Below are positions 7,426 to 48,564 of a DNA stretch of 64,000 nt, piece by piece. The stretch is taken from contig QEUP01000014.1 of NCBI GenBank assembly GCA_003577145.1, positions 1-64,000 of the forward strand. Reading direction: 5' to 3'. The translations under genes were made by a program, and so were the position numbers. Numbering within the stretch: position 1 is the first letter of the stretch; the number at the start of each line of letters is the position of its first letter. Origin of the DNA: Acidobacteriota bacterium (GTDB lineage Bacteria; Actinomycetota; Acidimicrobiia; Acidimicrobiales; Microtrichaceae). A model generated the notes under the pieces. It searched no databases. It was not told the DNA's origin and worked only from the letters and a program-made list of their open reading frames with translations.

Positions 7426-7764
7426 GTGGTCAGAGCTTCCATCCGGGTCGGCGATGCCGGCGCTGTAGCCGGCCTGATCCGCGCGGCACGAACAGCTGCC
7501 GGTTTGACCCAAGCGAGCCTGGCAGAGCGTCTGGGCACCACGCAGTCGGTCATATCCCGCTGGGAGCGTGGTCGCGACGAGCCGCGGCTGTCGACGTTGG
7601 CTCGGGTCATGCACGCGTGCGGGCACGCGCTGTCCCTTGCGGTCGAGCCTGACGATGTCGACCGGGCACAGATCCGCCAGCAGCTGGCGATGACCCCGTC
7701 CGAGCGCCTCGCGATGGTCACGAACGTCAGCCGTGTGCTGGCAGCGGCACACCGGGTTGGCTGA
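7426..7764 (+). CDS. XRE-family helix-turn-helix regulator, probable antitoxin
   Basis: The protein has 112 residues. A Cro/C1 helix-turn-helix spans about residues 15-70 (LIRAARTAAGLTQASLAERLGTTQSVISRWERG). The C-terminal part is mixed helical (TPSERLAMVTNVSRVLAAA). The GTG start sits at the predicted transcription start, with no Shine-Dalgarno. The stop overlaps the start of the nucleotidyltransferase gene (TGATG), so the two proteins are made together. In known HTH plus nucleotidyltransferase modules (AbiEi/AbiEii-like, MNT-type) the first gene is the antitoxin and repressor. Confidence 0.75.
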   Translation: MVRASIRVGDAGAVAGLIRAARTAAGLTQASLAERLGTTQSVISRWERGRDEPRLSTLARVMHACGHALSLAVEPDDVDRAQIRQQLAMTPSERLAMVTNVSRVLAAAHRVG

Positions 7765-8276
7765 TGCCGGCTCCCCTCGACCCAGAGTGCCTGTTCCGGG
7801 TGCTTCGTGACCATGGCGTGGAGTACGTGCTGGTCGGCGGCCTCGCCGCGGTGCTGTACGGCTCCACGGCACTGACCAACGACGCGGACATCGTTCCTGC
7901 GAGGGATCCCGCCAACTTGGAACGGCTCGGGCAGGCGTTGCGGTCGCTCGATGCTCGGCTGCGCGTGCCCGAGTCACCGGATGGCATCGCCTTCGATCCT
8001 CACCCGTCACTCCTCGATTCGATAGCCACGCTGAACCTCACGACGCGATGTGGCGACCTCGACCTGACGTTCGCGCCAGCCGCCTTGGACGATTACGACG
8101 CCCTTGTGGCCGCCAGCGCGGAGTTCGATCTGGCGGGTTGCCGAGTCAAGGTCGCGGCGCTGCGTGACCTGATCCGATCGAAGGAGGCGGCTGACCGTCC
8201 GAAGGACCGCGCCACCCTCCCGATCCTCTACGCGCTGGAGGAGGAGATCCGACGAGCGGGACGCCGGTCCCCGTAA
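7764..8276 (+). CDS. Nucleotidyltransferase, AbiEii/DUF6036-like probable toxin
   Basis: The protein has 170 residues. HGVEYVLVGGLAAVLYGSTALTNDADIV (residues 14-41) is the nucleotidyltransferase core, with the GG-x9-S motif and the paired acidic residues D-A-D that bind metal. A second acidic site is plausible at GDLDLTF (about residues 97-103). The C-terminal helix ALRDLIRSKEAADRPKDRATL resembles the end of AbiEii-like proteins. The gene overlaps the XRE gene by one base. A toxin or anti-phage role is inferred from that pairing, not from the sequence alone. Confidence 0.7.
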   Translation: MPAPLDPECLFRVLRDHGVEYVLVGGLAAVLYGSTALTNDADIVPARDPANLERLGQALRSLDARLRVPESPDGIAFDPHPSLLDSIATLNLTTRCGDLDLTFAPAALDDYDALVAASAEFDLAGCRVKVAALRDLIRSKEAADRPKDRATLPILYALEEEIRRAGRRSP

Positions 8277-8976: not shown

Positions 8977-9104
8977 GAGCTCGGCTGCCTGGCCGGCGGT
9001 CTCCACGCCCTCGGCGATCGTCTTGATGCCCAGGTTCTGGGCGAGAGGCCGCCATCGCCGCCGCTACCACCGCCGCATCCTCGGGATCGCGGTCCACACC
9101 GGGC
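8977..9104 (-). pseudogene. Displaced fragment of the neighbouring EAL-domain gene
   Basis: Bases 8977-9047 are identical to 11198-11268 over 71 bp. Similarity continues with small changes to about 9104 (matching about 11325). The segment encodes the IKTIAEGVETAGQ region near the end of the PAS-GGDEF-EAL protein. It has no start or domain context here, so it is a dead partial duplicate. Confidence 0.75.
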
Positions 9105-9197
9105 AGGCGCAGGCCTCGACGAGGTTCATCCTGACCGATCGGCCGAGCTAGGCTCGCCCCGCCGACTCACGAGTCAGCTGGACAATGGGGGTGCGAC

Positions 9198-10118
9198 ATG
9201 CACAGGAAGACGTTCCTCGCTATTCCGGCAACGGCCGCTGTCGTCGCGGGCTCAGCCCTGGTCACTTCAAGCGGTGTCAGTGCCCAAGAGGGTACCGCGG
9301 TGGTGTTCGAGTACAGCGGCGCCGAGCAGACCTGGGTCGTACCCGGGGATGTCTGTGAGATCGAGGTGGACGCCCGCGCCGCCCAAGGAGGGAACGGCGG
9401 CGGCGGCCAAACGATCAACCAGCTGAACCAGCCGAATCAGCTGAACCAGGGTGCGCTGGGGGGAAGGGCCGTGGCCTCCGTGGTGGTCACCCCCGGTGAG
9501 ACGCTGTTCGTCAACGTCGGCGGTGCCGGGCAGGACGGGGGGTCCAACCCGGGTACGGGTGGCGCCGGCGGCTTCAACGGTGGTGCCGCCGGCGGAACCA
9601 GTGATGGGTCGGGTGGCGGCGGCGGTGGCGGCGCCTCGGATGTGCGCCAGGGCGGTAACGCCCTCGCCAACCAGGTTGTCGTCGCCGGTGGTGGAGGTGG
9701 TGGTGGTGGCGGCCTCGACGGTGGCGACGGCGGTTCAGGCGGGGGAAGCGCCGGCGGCGACGGTGGCGACAGCCAAGACATCCCGCCCGCCACGGGCGGT
9801 GGCGGCGGCACCCAGGCCACCGGAGGCGCCCCCGGGACCGACACGCCTGGCGACGTCAACTCCGGTGGTGGTGGTGGCGGCGGTGGCTTCTACGGAGGCG
9901 GTGGTGGCGGCGGTGGCTTCTACGGAGGCGGTGGTGGCGGCGGTGGATCCGGCTTCGGCCCCGCCGGGGTCAGCTTCGAGTCGGGGGTGCAGCCGGGCGG
10001 TGGCCAGGTGACGCTCATCTACTCCGTGGAACCCGGTTGCGATACCGCGCCCAGCACGGAAACGCCACCGGCGGCACCTGCCCAGCCCGTAGCCGCCGCC
10101 CCCAGGTTCACCGGTTGA
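9198..10118 (+). CDS. Secreted glycine-rich repeat protein
   Basis: The protein has 306 residues. Residues 1-30 form a signal peptide (MHRKTFLAIPATAAVVAGSALVTSSGVSAQ). Residues about 33-65 are a beta segment (VVFEYSGAEQTWVVPGDVCEIEVDARAAQGGNGG), the usual opening of glycine-rich cell-surface domains. An Asn/Gln repeat INQLNQPNQLNQ follows, and then a long Gly-rich region to about 270 with perfect GGGGGGFYGG tandem repeats. The tail is PAAPAQPVAAAPRFTG, with no anchor. It is probably an extracellular matrix or adhesive protein; that role is inference. Confidence 0.7.
   Translation: MHRKTFLAIPATAAVVAGSALVTSSGVSAQEGTAVVFEYSGAEQTWVVPGDVCEIEVDARAAQGGNGGGGQTINQLNQPNQLNQGALGGRAVASVVVTPGETLFVNVGGAGQDGGSNPGTGGAGGFNGGAAGGTSDGSGGGGGGGASDVRQGGNALANQVVVAGGGGGGGGGLDGGDGGSGGGSAGGDGGDSQDIPPATGGGGGTQATGGAPGTDTPGDVNSGGGGGGGGFYGGGGGGGGFYGGGGGGGGSGFGPAGVSFESGVQPGGGQVTLIYSVEPGCDTAPSTETPPAAPAQPVAAAPRFTG
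9870..9947 (+). repeat. 30-bp in-frame tandem repeat in the glycine-rich gene
   Basis: Two identical 30-bp units (9870-9899, 9900-9929) and a partial third encode GGGGGGFYGG. The copy number could change by slippage without breaking the frame. Confidence 0.75.
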
Positions 10119-10182
10119 GCTCGTCTGGCACGCATCTCGATCGTGAAGATCAGATAGGCATACTGCTCGCCAGACGCTGTTA

Positions 10183-10205
10183 CCAGCGCCGGGGGGCCAC
10201 GCTGG
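10183..10205. terminator. Stem-loop between convergent glycine-rich and arsM genes
   Basis: CCAGCG-N11-CGCTGG is a perfect 6-bp stem one base beyond the arsM stop and 65 bases after the glycine-rich gene. A second, wider inverted repeat CGTCTGGC/GCCAGACG spans 10122-10176. Both fit a bidirectional terminator, although no U-tract is present. Confidence 0.4.
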
Positions 10206-10206
10206 C

Positions 10207-10962
10207 TCAGGCAGTGGCGCGGATGATGGCGCTGATCACGTCGTCGCCCACGTCATGGCTGGTGAGGACCTCGACCTCGCTGAACCCGGCCGCTTCGAGA
10301 CCGCCGGCGTACTCATCCCTGGTGAGGGCGCCGGCGATGCAACCGGTCCACTTCGCCAGGTCGGCCTTCTCCTCGGGACTGAACTCGCGGGTGGTGACCA
10401 CATCGGTCACCGCGAACCGGCCACCCGGGCGAAGCACCCGGTGAGCCTCCTCGAAGACCAGCGACTTGTCGGCCGACAGGTTGATCACGCAGTTGGAGAT
10501 GATCACGTCGACCGAATTGTCGGGCAGGGGGACGTCCTCGATCTCGCCCTTGAGGAACTCGACGTTCTCGATCCCGGCCTCGGCCTGGTTCCGTCTTGCC
10601 AACTCGAGCATCTCGTCGGTCATGTCCAACCCATAGACCTTGCCGCTCGGGCCGACTCTCCGGGCCGACAACAACACGTCGAGGCCGCCGCCAGAGCCGA
10701 GGTCCAGCACCGTTTCGCCCTCGTTCAACTCGGCCACCGCGGTCGGGTTGCCACAACCCAACGAGGCCAGCCTCGCCGCGTCGGGCACCTCGTCGCGCGC
10801 CGCCTCTTCGTACAAGGCCGCTCCGAAACCGGCTCCAGCCAGATCATCTGTCGCGGCGGGGCCGCAGCAGCCCGAAGCCTGCGAGCTCGCCAGCCGGGCA
10901 GCACCGGCGTAGCGCTCCCTGACCGCCTCCTTCACGTCGGCTCGGCTCACATCCTCAGTCAT
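10207..10962 (-). CDS. arsM: Arsenite S-adenosylmethyltransferase
   Basis: The protein has 251 residues. The SAM-binding motif is ETVLDLGSGGGLDVLLSARRVG, followed by GLDMTDEMLELARRN. The cysteines expected of ArsM are present: SGCCGPA near residue 31, ASLGCGNP near 69, ISNCVINL and KWTGCIAG. It should methylate As(III) to volatile or less toxic methylarsenicals in the cytoplasm. AGGAGGT lies five bases before the ATG. No arsR or other ars gene is adjacent, so any regulator acts from elsewhere, through the operator array upstream. Confidence 0.9.
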   Translation of the reverse strand: MTEDVSRADVKEAVRERYAGAARLASSQASGCCGPAATDDLAGAGFGAALYEEAARDEVPDAARLASLGCGNPTAVAELNEGETVLDLGSGGGLDVLLSARRVGPSGKVYGLDMTDEMLELARRNQAEAGIENVEFLKGEIEDVPLPDNSVDVIISNCVINLSADKSLVFEEAHRVLRPGGRFAVTDVVTTREFSPEEKADLAKWTGCIAGALTRDEYAGGLEAAGFSEVEVLTSHDVGDDVISAIIRATA

Positions 10963-11017
10963 GACCTACCTCCTGGTCCTCGATGGCCGGCCCGCCCTGC
11001 GAACCGCCACCCCACGT

Positions 11018-11066
11018 ATCGATCTGTATCGATGTATTTATATCGATGACCATCGATCTGTGTCAA
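11018..11066 (-). promoter_or_regulatory. arsM promoter overlapped by four ATCGAT hexamers
   Basis: On the minus strand TTGACA (11061-11066) and TATAAA (11037-11042) are 18 bases apart, which is close to consensus. ATCGAT occurs at 11018, 11028, 11042 and 11052. The spacing of 10, 14 and 10 bases is symmetric about the -10 box. Two hexamers lie in the spacer and two lie over the start site, an arrangement suited to a dimeric ArsR/SmtB-type repressor. Confidence 0.65.
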
Positions 11067-11110
11067 GGGGTGGCGACACATGTCACGGCGCGGCTACCGG
11101 CGAAAGAGGG

Positions 11111-12856
11111 TCAACGCCGCAGGAGGTCCTCGATCGCCTCAGCGGTACGCTCCTCACCGAGGTGGAAGCCCTGCGCGAGGTCGCAGCGCAGCCTGCGGAG
11201 CTCGGCTGCCTGGCCGGCGGTCTCCACGCCCTCGGCGATCGTCTTGATGCCCAGGTTCTGGGCGAGAGCGACAACCGCGGCTACCACCGCCGCATCCTCG
11301 GGATCGCGGTCAACCCCGGCCACGAACGACTGGTCGATCTTCAACAGATCCACGGGGAAGCAGCGCAGGTGGCTCAACGACGAGAAGCCCGTCCCGAAAT
11401 CATCCACCGCCACCAATGCGCCGAGGCCGCTGAGCCGGCCGAGCGCGTCGGCAACCCCGTCGATGTCGTCCATGAGCACGTTCTCGCTCACCTCCAGAGC
11501 GAGCTGAGCGGGCGGGACTCCCGCGACGCCGATGGCTTCGGCGGTGGCGTCGATGAAGGCCGGGCTGTTGAGCTGTCGCCCGCTGACGTTCACCGAGACG
11601 AAGAGATCAGGCGCCAGCTTGTGCCAGCGGGCGAAGGCGTCACAGGTCTGCTGCAGCACCCAAGAGCCGATGGGTACGACGAGCCCGGTCTCTTCGGCTA
11701 TCCGCAGGAACTCCGCGGGGCCGACCAACCCCCAGTCGGGGTGCTCCCAGCGCAGCAGCGCCTCGACGCCCACCAGCCGCGACGATTCGAGATCGAAGAT
11801 CGGCTGGTAGCGCAGGCGGAGCTGCCCCGACTCCAACGCCTTGCGCAGACCGTTCTCCACCTCGAAGCGCTCGACTGCACGCGCCCTCATCTCCGCGTCG
11901 AACATCTCGAGGCGCGCCCGCCCCCGCGACTTGGCCTCGTACATGGCAGCGTCGGCGTCCCTGATGAGGACCTCGGCAGCGGTCTTGCCGTCAGCCAAGG
12001 CGATGCCGATGCTGACCGTCACGAACAGCTCGGCGTCGGCAACCGAGTAGCTGCCGCTGACTGCGTCACTGACCCTCTCGGCAATGGCGATGGCCTGATG
12101 CTCGTCGATGATGCCCTCGCACAGCAGGACGAACTCGTCGCCCCCGAAGCGGGCGATGGTGTCCTCGGGGCGAACTGCTTGCTTGAGCCGCCGGGCGACG
12201 CAGGCCAGCAGATGATCGCCGTGGGTGTGGCCCAGGCTGTCGTTGACGATCTTGAGGTTGTCGAGGTCCAGGAACAGCAACGCCACGCTGGTGTCACGCC
12301 TGGCAGCACGAGCAAGCGCGATCCCCAGCCGGTCGAGCAACAGGGTGCGATTGGGGAGCCCTGTCAGCGGGTCGTGGGTGGCCTGGTGCTCGAGCAGCGC
12401 GACGAGCTGTTCGTCATGAGACCCCGAGGCCCCGGCGATCTCGCGCTCCTCGGTGACGTCTCGCATCCTGAACACGATGGCGCCCACCTCCGTGTCATCG
12501 AGCAGGTTCTTGCCCACGACATCCAGCAGCCTCCAGCTGCCGCCGGCGTGCCTGGCTCGAAGACGGTGATGGAGCGTGCCACCCCGCCGGTCACGCAGCT
12601 CCTTGAACCACGCCAGGGCCGTGCCCCTGTCACCCGGGTGGGCGAGCCCGGGCCCCGCCACCTCGGCAAGGCACTCCGGGTTGTAACCGAGCAGTGCGCC
12701 TGTGCCCGGCGAGGCCCACAGGACCCTCCCATCGCGGTCACAGAGCACGTAGACGTCGCCGAAGAGGCCGGCCAGGCCCGCCTCGGACGTCCCTTCACGA
12801 GCAGCATCGAACTGCGACGCCCGGTGCGGCGCTTCACGGCCTTCCACGCCAAGCAC
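11111..12856 (-). CDS. PAS-GGDEF-EAL cyclic-di-GMP turnover protein
   Basis: The protein has 581 residues. A PAS-like sensor covers about residues 30-137 and a GGDEF domain about 155-320, with the intact active site GGDEF (238-242). The inhibitory I-site RPED ends five residues upstream of it. The EAL domain covers about 330-575 with GVEALLRW (EAL 365-367), VDDFGTGFSSL and IKTIAEGVET. Both catalytic signatures look complete, so it could make and degrade c-di-GMP. There is no membrane segment. The start is GTG behind GGAGGGATAGGGG. Part of its 3' end is duplicated at 8977-9104. Confidence 0.9.
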   Translation of the reverse strand: MLGVEGREAPHRASQFDAAREGTSEAGLAGLFGDVYVLCDRDGRVLWASPGTGALLGYNPECLAEVAGPGLAHPGDRGTALAWFKELRDRRGGTLHHRLRARHAGGSWRLLDVVGKNLLDDTEVGAIVFRMRDVTEEREIAGASGSHDEQLVALLEHQATHDPLTGLPNRTLLLDRLGIALARAARRDTSVALLFLDLDNLKIVNDSLGHTHGDHLLACVARRLKQAVRPEDTIARFGGDEFVLLCEGIIDEHQAIAIAERVSDAVSGSYSVADAELFVTVSIGIALADGKTAAEVLIRDADAAMYEAKSRGRARLEMFDAEMRARAVERFEVENGLRKALESGQLRLRYQPIFDLESSRLVGVEALLRWEHPDWGLVGPAEFLRIAEETGLVVPIGSWVLQQTCDAFARWHKLAPDLFVSVNVSGRQLNSPAFIDATAEAIGVAGVPPAQLALEVSENVLMDDIDGVADALGRLSGLGALVAVDDFGTGFSSLSHLRCFPVDLLKIDQSFVAGVDRDPEDAAVVAAVVALAQNLGIKTIAEGVETAGQAAELRRLRCDLAQGFHLGEERTAEAIEDLLRR

Positions 12857-13000
12857 CCCCTATCCCTCCGTCGACAGGACCCCGACTCTACCGAGCCCGC
12901 CGGGGAGTCCCACAACGACGGCCTCGCCCCGACCCCGTGATGCCGCTGCCGACAACTGCCCCGTGAGCCGACGCCTGCTACGCCGGGGTCAGTTCTGCCC

Positions 13001-13933
13001 TCAGACCGCTGAAAGGGCCACCTGGGTCGCCGACGCCGCCGCTTGGAGCGCGTCGCTGCCCGACGCCACGCACCCGACACCCATGCTGCCGTCCACCGTC
13101 TCGACCAGCACGAACATCGTCGGCTCGTCGTCGACGAGGACCTCTCGGGCGTCACGCACCTCGCTGCCTCGCCCCTCGGCAGCCGCCACCGCAGTCGCCA
13201 CCGCGGCCAGTTCGGTCGCAGCGCTCCCGTTCCCGCTACGTTGCACGCCGTCGAGGGACACGAGCACCTCAGCACCGAAGCAGCCGCCCCCCGGAGGTAC
13301 GCCGTGCGTATCCTCGTTCCTTCTGACCAGCACCCGTGCCGGAACCGGCACCGCTAGGGGCTGGCTGGTCACCTCGAGCTGGAGGCACACATCGGCGATG
13401 GTGGTGCAGAGGCTCTCGATGAAGTGAGCCTCCTCCTCGGCCCAGGTGCCACCGGGACGGGCGATCACGAACGCCGACCGCGACGGTCCGCGATGACGGG
13501 TCACGATCACTCCCTCGAGGTCAGCCACCGCCCACAGCTCGGGGCCGGGCCGCTCGATGAGACCGGCGACGGTGGCGAACACGCTGTAGGCGAGAGAGGC
13601 ACCGAGATCCGCGATCGAGGGACGGTGGAGGCGAACATCGTGGTCGCCGGCCGCGTCGCGATGCACGTACATCACCAGCGCCGGCATCTCCAGCACCTCG
13701 TCGACGGAACGGAAGGCCTGTTCGACGAGCGCATCGAGCAGCCGGGCGAACGCCTCGGAGTTGGGCTCGTGAGGCCGGTCATCAGGGGTTTCGGGGATCA
13801 ACGCAGAGATGCCTCGTCCCTGGGTGCTTACCGCCGTGGTATCCGCCACGGCGCCATTAGGCTCCACCCGACCCGGACGCGTCAAGAGGTGGCGGCCAAG
13901 AACTGTCGTGAACCATCCCTTGTCCTGCGTCAT
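13001..13933 (-). CDS. Hypothetical protein, possibly GAF-like
   Basis: The protein has 310 residues and no recognised catalytic motif. The middle (about residues 75-190) alternates beta strands and helices (ALVMYVHRDAAGDHDVRLHRPSI ... EGVIVTRHRGPSRSAFVIARP), reminiscent of a GAF-type sensor. The C-terminal third (AAVATAVAAAEGR ... DEPTMFVLVETVDGSMGVGCVASG) resembles a roadblock-like fold. Neither assignment is firm. It lies 144 bases upstream of the GGDEF-EAL gene in the same direction, so it may feed a signal into c-di-GMP turnover. There is no signal peptide. Confidence 0.5.
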   Translation of the reverse strand: MTQDKGWFTTVLGRHLLTRPGRVEPNGAVADTTAVSTQGRGISALIPETPDDRPHEPNSEAFARLLDALVEQAFRSVDEVLEMPALVMYVHRDAAGDHDVRLHRPSIADLGASLAYSVFATVAGLIERPGPELWAVADLEGVIVTRHRGPSRSAFVIARPGGTWAEEEAHFIESLCTTIADVCLQLEVTSQPLAVPVPARVLVRRNEDTHGVPPGGGCFGAEVLVSLDGVQRSGNGSAATELAAVATAVAAAEGRGSEVRDAREVLVDDEPTMFVLVETVDGSMGVGCVASGSDALQAAASATQVALSAV

Positions 13934-39376: not shown

Positions 39377-40642
39377 TCAGCCTCCTGTGGCGGACGAATC
39401 GTCAGCCGGTTGTGGCTCCCGAGGCAGGCCGAGCACCTTCTCAGCGACGATGCTGCGCTGGATCTCGTCGGTGCCACCGGCGATCGACTGGGCCGGCACC
39501 GAGAGGAGAACCTCCGTGACCACCCCTGCGTGGGGGGCGTCATCACCGGCCAGCAGGCCCCAGGCCCCGGCGATGTGGCTGTGGGTCCGGGCAGCAGCGC
39601 GGGCCAGCCTGCTCGCGGCCAGCTTGGAGAGCGACCCCTCCGGTCCCCGCTTGGCACCCCTGGCAGCCGAGGCGCTCGCCCGCTGTGACATCCAGTGCAT
39701 GAGGCGCTCGAGTGAGTAGAGCTGCGCCAGCTGCTGGCGCACCAGCGGCTCGACCGATCTGCCGGCCTCCCGGGCGAGCACCGGCGCCAGGTCGGCCCGT
39801 CCCTGCCGCTGCGGGTACCACTCGTAGGTCTTGAAGTAGGCGAGCGCCTCGGCCATGGCCTCTTGGGCTGTCCTTCCCTGCGCCTCCCCCGGCATGAGCG
39901 CCAACAGGTTGGCCGCGAGGTGTCGTTCGTGGGCGAGGGTCGTGCGGGCCACGCCCCAGCCGGCGCCGACCACACCTATCACGTTCGCCTGCGGCACACG
40001 GGCGTCTGTGATGAAGACCTCGTTGAACGACGCGTAGCCGTTCATCTGGCGCAGCGGCCGGACCTCGATGCCCGGCTGGCGCAGGGGCAGCGCGAACGCC
40101 GTGATCCCCTCGTGCCTGGGCACGGAGGGATCGGTCCTCGCCAGCAGCAGGCCGTAGCCGGCGTGAGCGGCACCGGTCGTCCAGAGCTTCTGGCCGTTGA
40201 TCACCCACTCGTCGCCGTCCCTTACCGCCGACGTGGTGAGCCCGGCCAGGTCCGAGCCGCTCCCCGGCTCGCTGAAGAGCTGGCACCAGGCGTCCTCACC
40301 GGTGGCGATCGGCCGCAGCAGGCGGAGCTTGATCTCGGCGGACCCGTGCTCGAGCAGCGTGGGCGCGACGAGGCCGATGCCGACGCCCACCGCCGGTCCG
40401 ACTGCACCGGCACGGCGGATCTCCTCCAACACGATGCCGCCCAGTTCGGCCGGCAGGTCGCGACCGTAGAGCTCGCGGGGCCAGGTCGGGCACGCCCAGC
40501 CGGAGTCGACCAGGATGCTGCGCCAGTCCCGCAACGCCCGATCGGGCCGCCAGTTGAGCTCCAACCAGCTGCGAACGGCGCCTCGGACCGTCTCGGCTGA
40601 GGGCACCGCCGCGGCGCCGTCGGGTACGGCACCGCCTGTCAT
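39377..40642 (-). CDS. Acyl-CoA dehydrogenase
   Basis: The protein has 421 residues. CQLFSEPGSGSDLAGLTTSAVRDGDEWVINGQKLWTTGA is the FAD-binding family motif, and PAQSIAGGTDEIQRSIVAEKVLGLPRE closes the C-terminal domain. The N-terminal helical domain starts at ETVRGAVRSWLELN. It introduces an alpha-beta double bond in an acyl-CoA. It starts two bases after the upstream flavoprotein gene in the same operon. The substrate is unknown; no hydratase or thiolase lies in this operon. Confidence 0.9.
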   Translation of the reverse strand: MTGGAVPDGAAAVPSAETVRGAVRSWLELNWRPDRALRDWRSILVDSGWACPTWPRELYGRDLPAELGGIVLEEIRRAGAVGPAVGVGIGLVAPTLLEHGSAEIKLRLLRPIATGEDAWCQLFSEPGSGSDLAGLTTSAVRDGDEWVINGQKLWTTGAAHAGYGLLLARTDPSVPRHEGITAFALPLRQPGIEVRPLRQMNGYASFNEVFITDARVPQANVIGVVGAGWGVARTTLAHERHLAANLLALMPGEAQGRTAQEAMAEALAYFKTYEWYPQRQGRADLAPVLAREAGRSVEPLVRQQLAQLYSLERLMHWMSQRASASAARGAKRGPEGSLSKLAASRLARAAARTHSHIAGAWGLLAGDDAPHAGVVTEVLLSVPAQSIAGGTDEIQRSIVAEKVLGLPREPQPADDSSATGG

Positions 40643-40643
40643 C

Positions 40644-42257
40644 TCAGTCACCCAGGTATCCCGCAGCACGCGCGGAGGTGACGATCTCTGGTTCGGACCA
40701 CCAGATGTCGAGGCCGAGGTCGCCCGCCAGCACCCGCGCGGCGTTGTAGCCGGCGCCGAGGATGACCATGCCGCCTGGATGGGTGCTGGCACCACCCAGG
40801 TACAGGCCGTCGAGGGGAGTGCGGTATCCCGAGCACTCCGGGTTGGGGCGGTTGTAGCCCATCTGGAGGATCGCATAGGAGCCGTGCTTGATCGAGCCGC
40901 GACGCATCGTCGGCAGGTGCGCCTCGATGTCTGCGGGCGTCCAGTTGAGCGACGCGCGAACGTTGGCATCCCGCAGGTTCGGCGCGTAACGGGCCCACAG
41001 GTCGATGCAGCGGGAGGCGAACGCCTCGGCCTCGCTGTCCCAGTCGACGTCGTAGGGGGCGAGGCATTCGTAGCGCAGCGTGTGGGCCTCACCGAAAGGG
41101 ACATGGCCGGGAGCCATGAGGGGGTCGTGCAACGAGCACACCGTGCCGTGCCCGGCGCTGCTCGTGAGCGAGCCGCTCGCTACCTCGCCCAGATGATCAT
41201 GGACGTCAGCGGGTGTCTCGTAGCCCATGACCACGTTGAGGGAACGGTCGACTTCGGCCGGATAGCCCTCGTAGCGGGGGGCGGCACCAACCACCCCCAG
41301 GTTGGCGACGAAGAGACTGGTTCTCTCCCATTCCCAGTCGCTCGCCGAAGCACGGATCATGGGATCCAGCGGCAGGTCCTCGCCGAGCTCGAGGAAGTTC
41401 TGGGCGGGATTGAGCGTGCTGAGCACGGCATCGGCGTGCAGGGCCGTTCCGTCGGCCAGGCTCACCCCCGTCACCCGTGCTCCGTCCCACAGCAGCTCGC
41501 GCACGTCGGCGTCCACCACCACGGACCCACCGGCGTCCTCCACGACGCGGCGCAGCACCGACGAGAGCTGGTGCGATCCGCCCCGCACCAGCGCGGCCTG
41601 GGTGAGCCGGTACAGGTAGATCGGCGCCAGGAACCCCAGCCCACCCTCGTCGGGGTCCAGGCCGAACATGGCGATGAGGTACAGCAGCGCCGCCTCGACG
41701 CGGGGGTCCTCGATGTCGTACCCGGCGACGAACTCACCCGGCGTGATGTCGCCCATTGCCGCCATCTTCTCGCCGAGCGCGCCCGCGCTGTTGAGGGCGA
41801 CCATCTGATCGATCGGCTCGAGTGGCGGGACGTAGGAGGCCGGTATCAAGAAGGCGTCGCACATGGTGGCGCAGTCCTGTAGCAGCGCCTCTACCCGCGG
41901 GGCGTCGGCAGGGCAAAGCGACTTGACGCTCGCCGCGCTGAGCGCGACGTCGGTGTGCAAGGTGAGGGCCGCATCGTCCTCGAAGAGGAAGCTGACCTGC
42001 TCGGGCGGCCGGATGAACTCGACACCACGCTGGGCCAACCCCAGGTCGCCGTAGGGTGGCATCAGCTCGGCCAGCATCATGTAGGTGGCGTGGTAGTTGA
42101 ACCTGAACCCGGCGAGCTCTTCTGTCACCAGGCCCCCGCCGGTCTCGATGTTGCGCTCCAGCACGGTCACCGCGCCACCGGCACGCGCCAGGTAGGCCGC
42201 TGCTGTGAGCCCGTTGGGGCCTGCGCCGAGGACGAGGATCTCGGGTGAGGCGTTCAT
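40644..42257 (-). CDS. FAD-dependent oxidoreductase, phytoene desaturase-like (copy B)
   Basis: The protein has 537 residues. The N-terminal FAD motif is EILVLGAGPNGLTAAAYLARAGGAVTVLERN with ETGGGLVTEEL. The C-terminus has GLYLGGASTHPGGMVILGAGYNAARVL, as in CrtI/phytoene-desaturase-like and amine-oxidase flavoproteins. Related actinobacterial proteins often occur as pairs, as here. The start overlaps the end of copy A by four bases. A carotenoid role is unlikely given the acyl-CoA and aldehyde dehydrogenases downstream. The substrate is unknown. Confidence 0.85.
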   Translation of the reverse strand: MNASPEILVLGAGPNGLTAAAYLARAGGAVTVLERNIETGGGLVTEELAGFRFNYHATYMMLAELMPPYGDLGLAQRGVEFIRPPEQVSFLFEDDAALTLHTDVALSAASVKSLCPADAPRVEALLQDCATMCDAFLIPASYVPPLEPIDQMVALNSAGALGEKMAAMGDITPGEFVAGYDIEDPRVEAALLYLIAMFGLDPDEGGLGFLAPIYLYRLTQAALVRGGSHQLSSVLRRVVEDAGGSVVVDADVRELLWDGARVTGVSLADGTALHADAVLSTLNPAQNFLELGEDLPLDPMIRASASDWEWERTSLFVANLGVVGAAPRYEGYPAEVDRSLNVVMGYETPADVHDHLGEVASGSLTSSAGHGTVCSLHDPLMAPGHVPFGEAHTLRYECLAPYDVDWDSEAEAFASRCIDLWARYAPNLRDANVRASLNWTPADIEAHLPTMRRGSIKHGSYAILQMGYNRPNPECSGYRTPLDGLYLGGASTHPGGMVILGAGYNAARVLAGDLGLDIWWSEPEIVTSARAAGYLGD

Positions 42258-47162: not shown

Positions 47163-47281
47163 TTGATATCGCAATTCATCTGTCACTTCCCATCTTGCCC
47201 ATTCCATTGATGCCGATATTGCCCAAGAAGGATAATGAAGTATTATTGGTTGACATCGATATGGTCTCTTTGCGTAATCAA
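47163..47281. promoter_or_regulatory. AT-rich promoter interval with inverted TGATNNCGCAA motifs
   Basis: TTGATATCGCAA (47163-47174) is mirrored by TTGCGTAATCAA (47270-47281), matching 10 of 12 bases. The region between them is markedly AT-rich compared with its surroundings and contains TTGCCC-N16-TATTAT, a usable promoter toward the acyl-CoA dehydrogenase. The same motif recurs ahead of the acyl-CoA ligase near 50220. Confidence 0.45.
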
Positions 47282-47307: not shown

Positions 47308-48564
47308 GTGAGCGAGCCCGGCGGCTCGGCCCCGCCGATCAGCCTCGACGAGTTCGTCAGCGAGTGCCGCGCGTTCCTCGACGGCAGCTACGAGCCCAAG
47401 GTCGACACCGGGCTCCGCTGGGGTGAGGGCAGCGATCGCGTAGGCGTCTTCGAGGAGCCCGATCCGGAGGAGGAGCAGCGCCGCATGCGCGCCGTACGGG
47501 AGTGGCGCCGGCGGCTCTTCGACGCCGGCCTGGGCTGGATCACCGGGCCCATCCGCTACGGCGGGCGGGACCTGCCGCTCAGCTACCAGCGGGCCTTCGA
47601 CCGGTTGGCCCGCGGCTATGACGTGCCCGGCAACGGTCCGGTGACCATCACCCTCGGGATGGTCGCGCCGACCATCCTCGCCCACGGGACCGAGGCAGCC
47701 CGGAACCGCTACCTCGCGGCGTTGCACCGGGGCGACCTGGTCGCCTGCCAGCTCTTCAGCGAGCCGGGTGCCGGGTCCGACCTCGCGTCGGTGTCGACCA
47801 CGGCAACACGCGACGGCGACGGCTGGCGGATCAGCGGCCAGAAGGTGTGGACCTCCGGCGCCCAGCACGCCGACATCGGCGAGGTGCTGTGCCGCACCGG
47901 CGAGGCCCCCCGCCACCGCAACCTCACCGCCTTCGTCATCGACATGGGTGCCCCCGGTGTCGAGGTCCGGCCGTTGCGCCAGATGACGGGCGGTGCGGCG
48001 TTCAACGAGGTCTTCCTCGACAGCGTGTGGGTCCCCGACGAGGATCGGCTGGGCGACATCGGCGCGGGCTGGCAGGTGGCGCTGACGACGTTGCGCAACG
48101 AGCGCTCCTCGATCGGCAGCGAGAGCTTCGGCGGAGCCGGGCTGTTGGACCTGGAGCGCTTCAAGGCGATGGTGCACCACTGCGGGCGCCGCGACGACCC
48201 GCTCATCAGGCAGCACCTGGCTCGGCTGTACTGCGGCATCAGGGCCGCCAAGTACATGCGCCAGCGCGCCGAAGCCGCCCGGCGTCGCGGGTTGGCGGCC
48301 GGACCCGAAGGCCCACTGGGCAAGCTGGCGCTGGCCAGGAACATGGCCGAGATCACCGCCTTCGTCTCGGCGCTGCTGGGACCGAGCCTGGTCGCCGACA
48401 GCGGCCGGTGGGGTACCTACGCCTGGGCCAACTTCGTGCTCGGTGCGCCGGGCTACCGCCTCGGTGGCGGAACCGACGAGGTGATCAAGAACATCATCGC
48501 CGAGCGAGCCCTCGGACTACCTCGAGAACCGGCGGCACCGATGGCGGGCCCGGGCCGCCCATGA
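47308..48564 (+). CDS. Acyl-CoA dehydrogenase
   Basis: The protein has 418 residues. CQLFSEPGAGSDLASVSTTATRDGDGWRISGQKVWTSGA is the FAD motif and LGGGTDEVIKNIIAERALGLPREP closes the protein. An N-terminal acidic helical domain covers about 1-110. It is a paralogue of the enzyme at 39377. The start is GTG. The convergent acyl-CoA ligase at 48601 and shared promoter motifs suggest that the ligase makes its substrate. Confidence 0.9.
   Translation: MSEPGGSAPPISLDEFVSECRAFLDGSYEPKVDTGLRWGEGSDRVGVFEEPDPEEEQRRMRAVREWRRRLFDAGLGWITGPIRYGGRDLPLSYQRAFDRLARGYDVPGNGPVTITLGMVAPTILAHGTEAARNRYLAALHRGDLVACQLFSEPGAGSDLASVSTTATRDGDGWRISGQKVWTSGAQHADIGEVLCRTGEAPRHRNLTAFVIDMGAPGVEVRPLRQMTGGAAFNEVFLDSVWVPDEDRLGDIGAGWQVALTTLRNERSSIGSESFGGAGLLDLERFKAMVHHCGRRDDPLIRQHLARLYCGIRAAKYMRQRAEAARRRGLAAGPEGPLGKLALARNMAEITAFVSALLGPSLVADSGRWGTYAWANFVLGAPGYRLGGGTDEVIKNIIAERALGLPREPAAPMAGPGRP

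Follow-up and report, generated by a model that had tools for sequence, protein, structure and literature searches.

How is the arsenite methyltransferase gene arsM controlled when no gene for an arsenic-responsive repressor lies beside it, and what is the function of a conspicuous array of ATCGAT hexamers on its promoter? We addressed these questions by analysing a 64-kb stretch of DNA, hereafter called the window, together with the genome from which it originates and the genomes of relatives.

The arsM gene, its promoter and the hexamer array

The arsM gene (10207-10962, minus strand) is monocistronic and encodes an arsenite S-adenosylmethionine methyltransferase of 251 amino acids, which scores 315.6 bits against the cut-off of 263 of the bacterial arsenite methyltransferase family NF008823. 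In an alignment of five rows from relatives, C70 and C158 are invariant and the N-terminal CC and C208 are found in four of the five rows; all of them are present in the window protein. Hereby, we take C70, C158 and C208, together with the N-terminal CC, to be the As(III)-binding cysteines. In line with the sequence-only reading, which had described arsM as a lone gene without adjacent arsR, its neighbours are a GGDEF/EAL gene upstream (11111-12856, same strand as arsM) and a convergent ORF downstream (9198-10118), and none of the genome's seven matches to the ArsR-family domain HTH_5 lies on contig C19, to which the window belongs.

Upstream of arsM the window sequence contains a TTGACA-N18-TATAAA promoter (11066-11037, minus strand) with a -35 box TTGACA at 11066-11061, an 18-bp spacer and a -10 box TATAAA at 11042-11037. 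When TTGACA/TATAAT-like pairs with a spacer of 15-19 and at most one mismatch were searched on both strands, this promoter was the sole one in 64 kb, the runner-up having two mismatches. The earlier description as near-consensus is thus borne out by letter count, and the promoter, described there also as unusually strong for the genome, may be a strong one; the comparison covers the 64-kb window. A stricter promoter scan of 9900-13000 called no promoter, because the -10 box lacks a T at position 6.

Four ATCGAT hexamers (11018-11023, 11028-11033, 11042-11047 and 11052-11057) are superimposed on this promoter with start-to-start distances of 10-14-10, exactly as first read from the sequence. 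The 10-bp register extends to a fifth half-site at 11062-11067, which is degenerate (GTCAAG, or CTTGAC when read on the minus strand) and within which the -35 box lies. From these half-sites two predicted operator units are formed, namely ATCGAT-GACC-ATCGAT (11042-11057) in the promoter spacer, which overlaps the -10 box by one base, and ATCGAT-CTGT-ATCGAT (11018-11033) over the predicted start site, so that inverted repeats, as required of an operator, overlap both the promoter and the start site. A predicted weak third unit, ATCGAT-CTGT-GTCAAG (11052-11067), lies over the -35 box. Between the array and the ATG, the arsM leader (10963-11017, minus strand) carries a Shine-Dalgarno-like AGGAGGT, and a riboswitch/Rfam search over 9000-13500, including this leader, returned no match at the gathering threshold. 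The whole array is bracketed by a perfect 9-nt inverted repeat, CGCCACCCC/GGGGTGGCG, at 11005-11013 and 11067-11075, the centre of which is unlike that of the hexamer array and which may have arisen by chance.

The simplest explanation of the hexamers would be a chance pile-up in an AT-richer intergenic stretch. Across the window the density of ATCGAT is indeed ordinary (15 copies against a shuffle mean of 11.16, with 15 reached in 20 of 100 shuffles), and we therefore dropped whole-window density as evidence. Unlike this density, the cluster of four is not ordinary. Dinucleotide shuffles of the intergenic region 10963-11110 contained 0.149 hexamers on average and never more than 2, those of 11010-11070 averaged 0.299 and did not exceed 3, and four copies appeared in 0 of 5000 shuffles in either case. 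As the unit is moreover conserved across genomes (see below), the comparative data already contradict a chance origin, to which we give practically no credence.

The putative operator unit in the source genome and a candidate regulator

The exact unit ATCGATNNNNATCGAT (ATCGAT-N4-ATCGAT) is found at two sites in the 4,051,767 bases of the genome, both at arsM, and at none for the reversed-pattern control. The objection that the hexamers could occur at random density genome-wide, which had been named as grounds for giving up the operator reading, thus fails for the paired unit. The degenerate unit ATYGAY-N4-RTCRAT (ATYGAYNNNNRTCRAT) has four genomic sites, two in the arsM promoter and one each on contigs C25 and C64 (reversed control 0), a count that is partly circular for the own genome since the pattern was written after its arsR leader and those of some relatives had been viewed. 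Judged by these occurrences, the putative operator unit is the palindrome ATYGAY-N4-RTCRAT and not the bare hexamer. With the looser pattern ATYGAN6TCRAT, seven sites were obtained, i.e. the four strict ones and one each on C16, C63 and C67 (control 0). The sites on C16, C63, C64 and C67, two of which are inside ORFs and none of which is beside a recognised arsenic gene, were taken as chance occurrences rather than further targets. When two mismatches were allowed, a genome scan returned 104 sites (reversed pattern: 8), most of them ATCGA-rich sequence, and such a scan is uninformative alone.

The site on C25 (70249-70264) reads ATCGAC-TCCT-GTCGAT and is situated in the leader of an arsR gene that starts 14 bp further on, at 70278. 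The search for the array beside ArsR genes, which the sequence-only reading had proposed, hence recovers the unit at this arsR but not the four-fold array. At the sequence level, arsM and an unlinked arsR share the unit, as would be expected of a scattered regulon. The encoded protein (G000:C25:70278-70610, 111 aa, NF033788) is the best of the seven HTH_5 matches of the genome, and its scores (92.2 against a cut-off of 55 for NF033788 and 55.8 against 22 for PF01022) place it among the ArsR-type winged-helix proteins; with 90.2 bits it stays below the cut-off of 155 for the Rv2640c family (NF041413). It has four cysteines, C10, C11, C55 and C57. Its gene is flanked by a phosphoglycerate-mutase-like and a rho-like ORF (both named by eye), and no arsenic gene was recognised at the locus. 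Based on the shared unit, this lone ArsR gene is probably the missing regulator of arsM.

It is conceivable that the array is an ArsR/SmtB operator whose cognate regulator is another ArsR-family gene of the genome, or one in the missing part of the assembly. The genome has seven HTH_5 matches to choose from, the assembly is 96.6% complete, and two unit-bearing arsM loci of other genomes (L028 and L034) have a different type of ArsR alongside. However, only the C25 ArsR carries the unit in its leader; the remaining six HTH_5 loci (L004-L009), each covering about 3.1 kb, are devoid of any unit within two mismatches of ATCGATN4ATCGAT, and leaders of C25-type ArsR genes carry it in 28 of 34 cases, as detailed below. 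We therefore consider another regulator unlikely and retain the C25 ArsR as the preferred candidate.

Contig C33 (about 40392-41472, loci L005/L035) holds a further arsM-like gene with 45% identity, which is oriented divergently to an ORF that resembles ArsR and, judged by eye, has a rhodanese-like C-terminal part. The promoter of this second arsM-like gene lacks the ATYGAY-N4-RTCRAT unit and displays other repeats of the TATTCAAA.. type, which is why this gene likely has a separate regulator.

arsR and arsM loci in other genomes

Of 61 related genomes, 37 have an ArsR protein of the C25 type, with 38 matches in total. For the analysis of their leaders we took in 34 loci, i.e. 30 from the 38 matches plus L138, L141, L144 and L145, of which L144 and L145 are also among the 38 matches, so that six of the 38 were left out of the leader count. 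Within 260 bp, ATYGAN6TCRAT was present without mismatch in 28 of these 34 leaders and with at most one mismatch in 32 (reversed control 0), and most unit-bearing leaders hold two units. A similarity search, the seeds of which were named by NCBIfam (ArsI and ACR3 above, MIP and arsenate reductase below the curated cut-off), detected arsenic-type neighbours at 25 of the 30 C25-type arsR loci (ArsI at 21, MIP at 13, ArsC at 11 and ACR3 at 3); the own C25 locus belongs to the five that lack all of these. Since the genes of relatives usually adjoin arsI, acr3, arsC or a MIP channel gene, an arsenic-related role of the C25-type ArsR is well supported. In a poorly resolved tree of these proteins (127 columns) the lone state of arsR needs six changes. 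A single ancestry of this state was accordingly rejected, and linkage of arsR was likely lost repeatedly.

Using 54 sites from the arsR leaders of 27 of 29 relatives, with the own genome excluded, we trained an operator matrix. Among all positions of the 64 kb it ranks the unit at 11042 first (23.2) and that at 11018 second (21.3), compared to a training range of 11.1-26.7, and the unit over the -35 box, with a score of 11.8, is at the bottom of this range. The position of this weak unit agrees with that of the -35 unit of relatives (ATTGAC-N4 units). Neighbouring units in the relatives' arsR leaders are mostly spaced by 18 or 29-38 bp. The two strong arsM units, 24 bp apart, fall outside these common spacings, and it is only with the weak -35 unit that a usual spacing, 34, results. 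One of the middle hexamers of the array produces the strong unit at an offset of 10 bp.

A corresponding enrichment was observed at arsM itself in a comparison of 80 arsM loci from named genomes. Upstream of arsM, 27 units without mismatch occur in 29,176 bases, compared to 18 in 572,393 other bases, i.e. a 28.6-fold enrichment (reversed control 0). Such a unit is present at 15 of the 80 loci and absent from 65, and the 15 have a divergent ArsR gene in nine cases, a co-directional one in two and none detected nearby in four. In arsM relatives of the same order the unit often occurs twice and at similar promoter positions, one over the TTGACA -35 box and one over the start site.

The pairing of arsM with an unlinked arsR was evaluated for nine genome handles (the own and eight others) with a unit of up to one mismatch upstream of arsM and no ArsR detected beside it; the places in G055 and G063 coincided, and these two handles were counted once, which leaves eight genomes. 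In five of the eight (the own genome, G024, G045, G061 and G062) the best ArsR homologue has a strict unit in its leader, and the leaders of the latter four had not been inspected before the strict pattern was drawn up. By chance alone, a given gene would have a site within 150 bp with a probability of about 1-2 in 10,000. Genome-wide, all strict sites are at arsM/arsR places in G045 (three of three) and in G024 (two of two). Three genomes fail the strict test: in G055 the best ArsR is without a unit and a second ArsR has one with a single mismatch, G064 has no strict site at all, and G065 (Streptomyces naganishii) has only relaxed variants.

These data also bear on the possibility that the hexamers are a repeat element or the binding site of some regulator unrelated to ArsR, with an incidental likeness to an ArsR site. 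Letters alone are no proof of an ArsR site, and most strict sites looked at in G055 belong to a dispersed repeat. The exact unit in the own genome, on the other hand, is restricted to the arsM promoter, and in other lineages the unit is found again in the region that separates arsR from arsM, which makes this explanation very improbable compared to an ArsR operator. The dispersed repeat of G055, ATCGACN4GTCGATCTGACCTCTGG...TAGGGGTCAGACCCC, imitates the ArsR unit (e.g. at L214 and L217-L221), and next to one copy is a gene for a Y1 (IS200-like) transposase (L215:926-1579). A large regulon in G055 was rejected, as copies of this repeat account for most of the sites looked at. One strict unit of this genome (L216:1597, i.e. 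G055:C190:46096) precedes an ArsP_1 permease gene (PF03773, 121.6 bits) by about 70 bp, and this gene is likely a further target there.

Proposed control of arsM and comparison with known systems

Taking together the unit, its positions, its genome-wide rarity, the shared arsR site, the conserved pairing and the linkage to arsenic genes in relatives, we consider it very probable that an ArsR repressor responsive to As(III), the product of the unlinked gene at G000:C25:70278-70610, acts in trans on the array as its operator. The initial proposal of a two-dimer, ArsR-type repressor array thus holds computationally, the leader of the unlinked C25 arsR carrying the same unit. From these sequence-level data we infer physical binding, simultaneous occupancy by two dimers, repression and induction by As(III). 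In the absence of arsenite, ArsR dimers would occupy palindromic ATYGAY-N4-RTCRAT units, one dimer over the start site (11018-11033) and one in the promoter spacer, touching the -10 box (11042-11057), and a dimer might slide to the weaker unit (11052-11067) and thereby cover the -35 box. The bound dimers would exclude RNA polymerase. Arsenite would then bind to C10, C11, C55 and C57 and release ArsR, and arsM and arsR would be switched on together, resulting in the methylation of arsenite.

The nearest solved structure to the C25 ArsR is that of CgArsR from Corynebacterium glutamicum (6j0e, E 2.9e-18), a type 3 protein in which, according to the accessible text of PMC11868830, As(III) is bound by C15-C16 and by C55 of the other chain. 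Both proteins have an N-terminal cysteine pair, which is shifted by one residue in the alignment. They differ in the third cysteine, as the next cysteine of the C25 ArsR is located 4-6 residues beyond the C55 position of CgArsR, within a type 1-like CVCD motif (C55-V-C57) of helix 3. Because the further cysteines form this CVC and do not occupy the CgArsR C55 position, both the sensing site and the inducer given above are putative.

A regulon of this kind is already known, since a scattered arsM regulon is documented for Thermus thermophilus and ArsR control that reaches beyond its own operon for Agrobacterium (accessible text of PMC7965956). In T. thermophilus HB27, the ArsR/SmtB repressor TtSmtB controls scattered arsenic genes including arsM and, as far as the accessible parts of PMC5658604 and PMC8649762 describe it, recognises in the arsM promoter an inverted repeat overlapping the -10 and -35 boxes, similar to the overlap predicted here. 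In the same sources, the TtSmtB operator is of the GAAC(N14)CTTG / TTGCTCAA type, compared to ATYGAY-N4-RTCRAT in the present case, and Thermus smtB adjoins an efflux ATPase gene, whereas here none of the neighbours of arsR was recognised as an arsenic gene. In arsRM operons (ArarsRMC, accessible text of PMC11868830) ArsR controls arsM as well, but regulator and target share one operon. The arsR-arsI/arsC/acr3 loci of the same order have the same ArsR type and the same two-unit operator, in which a TTGACA -35 box is covered by one of the units; those loci are linked and divergent, whereas here the genes are unlinked, the target is arsM, and neither ArsI nor ACR3 was found in the genome.

The search for ACR3 in the 96.6% complete assembly gave no match, with the control search positive in 7 of 14 reference genomes, and the same holds for ArsI/CadI, with 2 of 14 positive. 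With ACR3 and ArsI apparently missing from the genome, the organism may rely mainly on methylation to defend itself against arsenic, and the control of arsM would then matter all the more. We also considered a rewired regulon, in which an arsI-type two-unit promoter came to drive a distant arsM, arsI was dropped and a lone arsR was left, with dimer sites that overlap owing to half-sites shifted by 10 bp and that give a graded response. A divergent arsR-arsI pair is the common state in the same order, and in lineages gaining arsM, ArsI would undo methylation. ArsI is absent from three of four genomes with an unlinked operator-bearing arsM, compared to 15 of 57 others (P 0.073), and from three of the six genomes in which a window-type arsM exceeds 200 bits, compared to 15 of 55 (P 0.35). 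Mutual exclusion of arsI and arsM is hence not established, and the rewiring, although compatible with the data, is not significant (P 0.073) and appears doubtful to us.

In the literature, including the accessible text of PMC6514093 and PMC6205960 and with subscription journals mostly outside its scope, our search found no description of an ATYGAY-N4-RTCRAT operator for an actinobacterial ArsR. The present analysis would add the predicted operator of an actinobacterial ArsR group, its unlinked pairing with arsM in several genomes and an overlapping array. It suggests that arsM genes without a neighbouring arsR need not be constitutive, and that their regulator may be findable via the operator. 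For the cysteine-rich ArsR group of 37 of 61 related genomes, the operator model ATYGAY-N4-RTCRAT, usually paired, could be useful in annotating the arsenic regulons of uncultured actinobacteria and for biosensor promoters.

Two further features of the window were observed. The second-best promoter-like pair, TTGACA-N17-CGTAAT at 47245-47280, overlaps ATTGGTTGACATCGAT (matrix score 14.4) and is located upstream of an acyl-CoA-dehydrogenase-like ORF (named by eye) at 47308. At 7426-8276, a HipB-like HTH ORF (HTH_3) is directly followed by an ORF of 170 aa without family match, a layout resembling that of toxin-antitoxin pairs.
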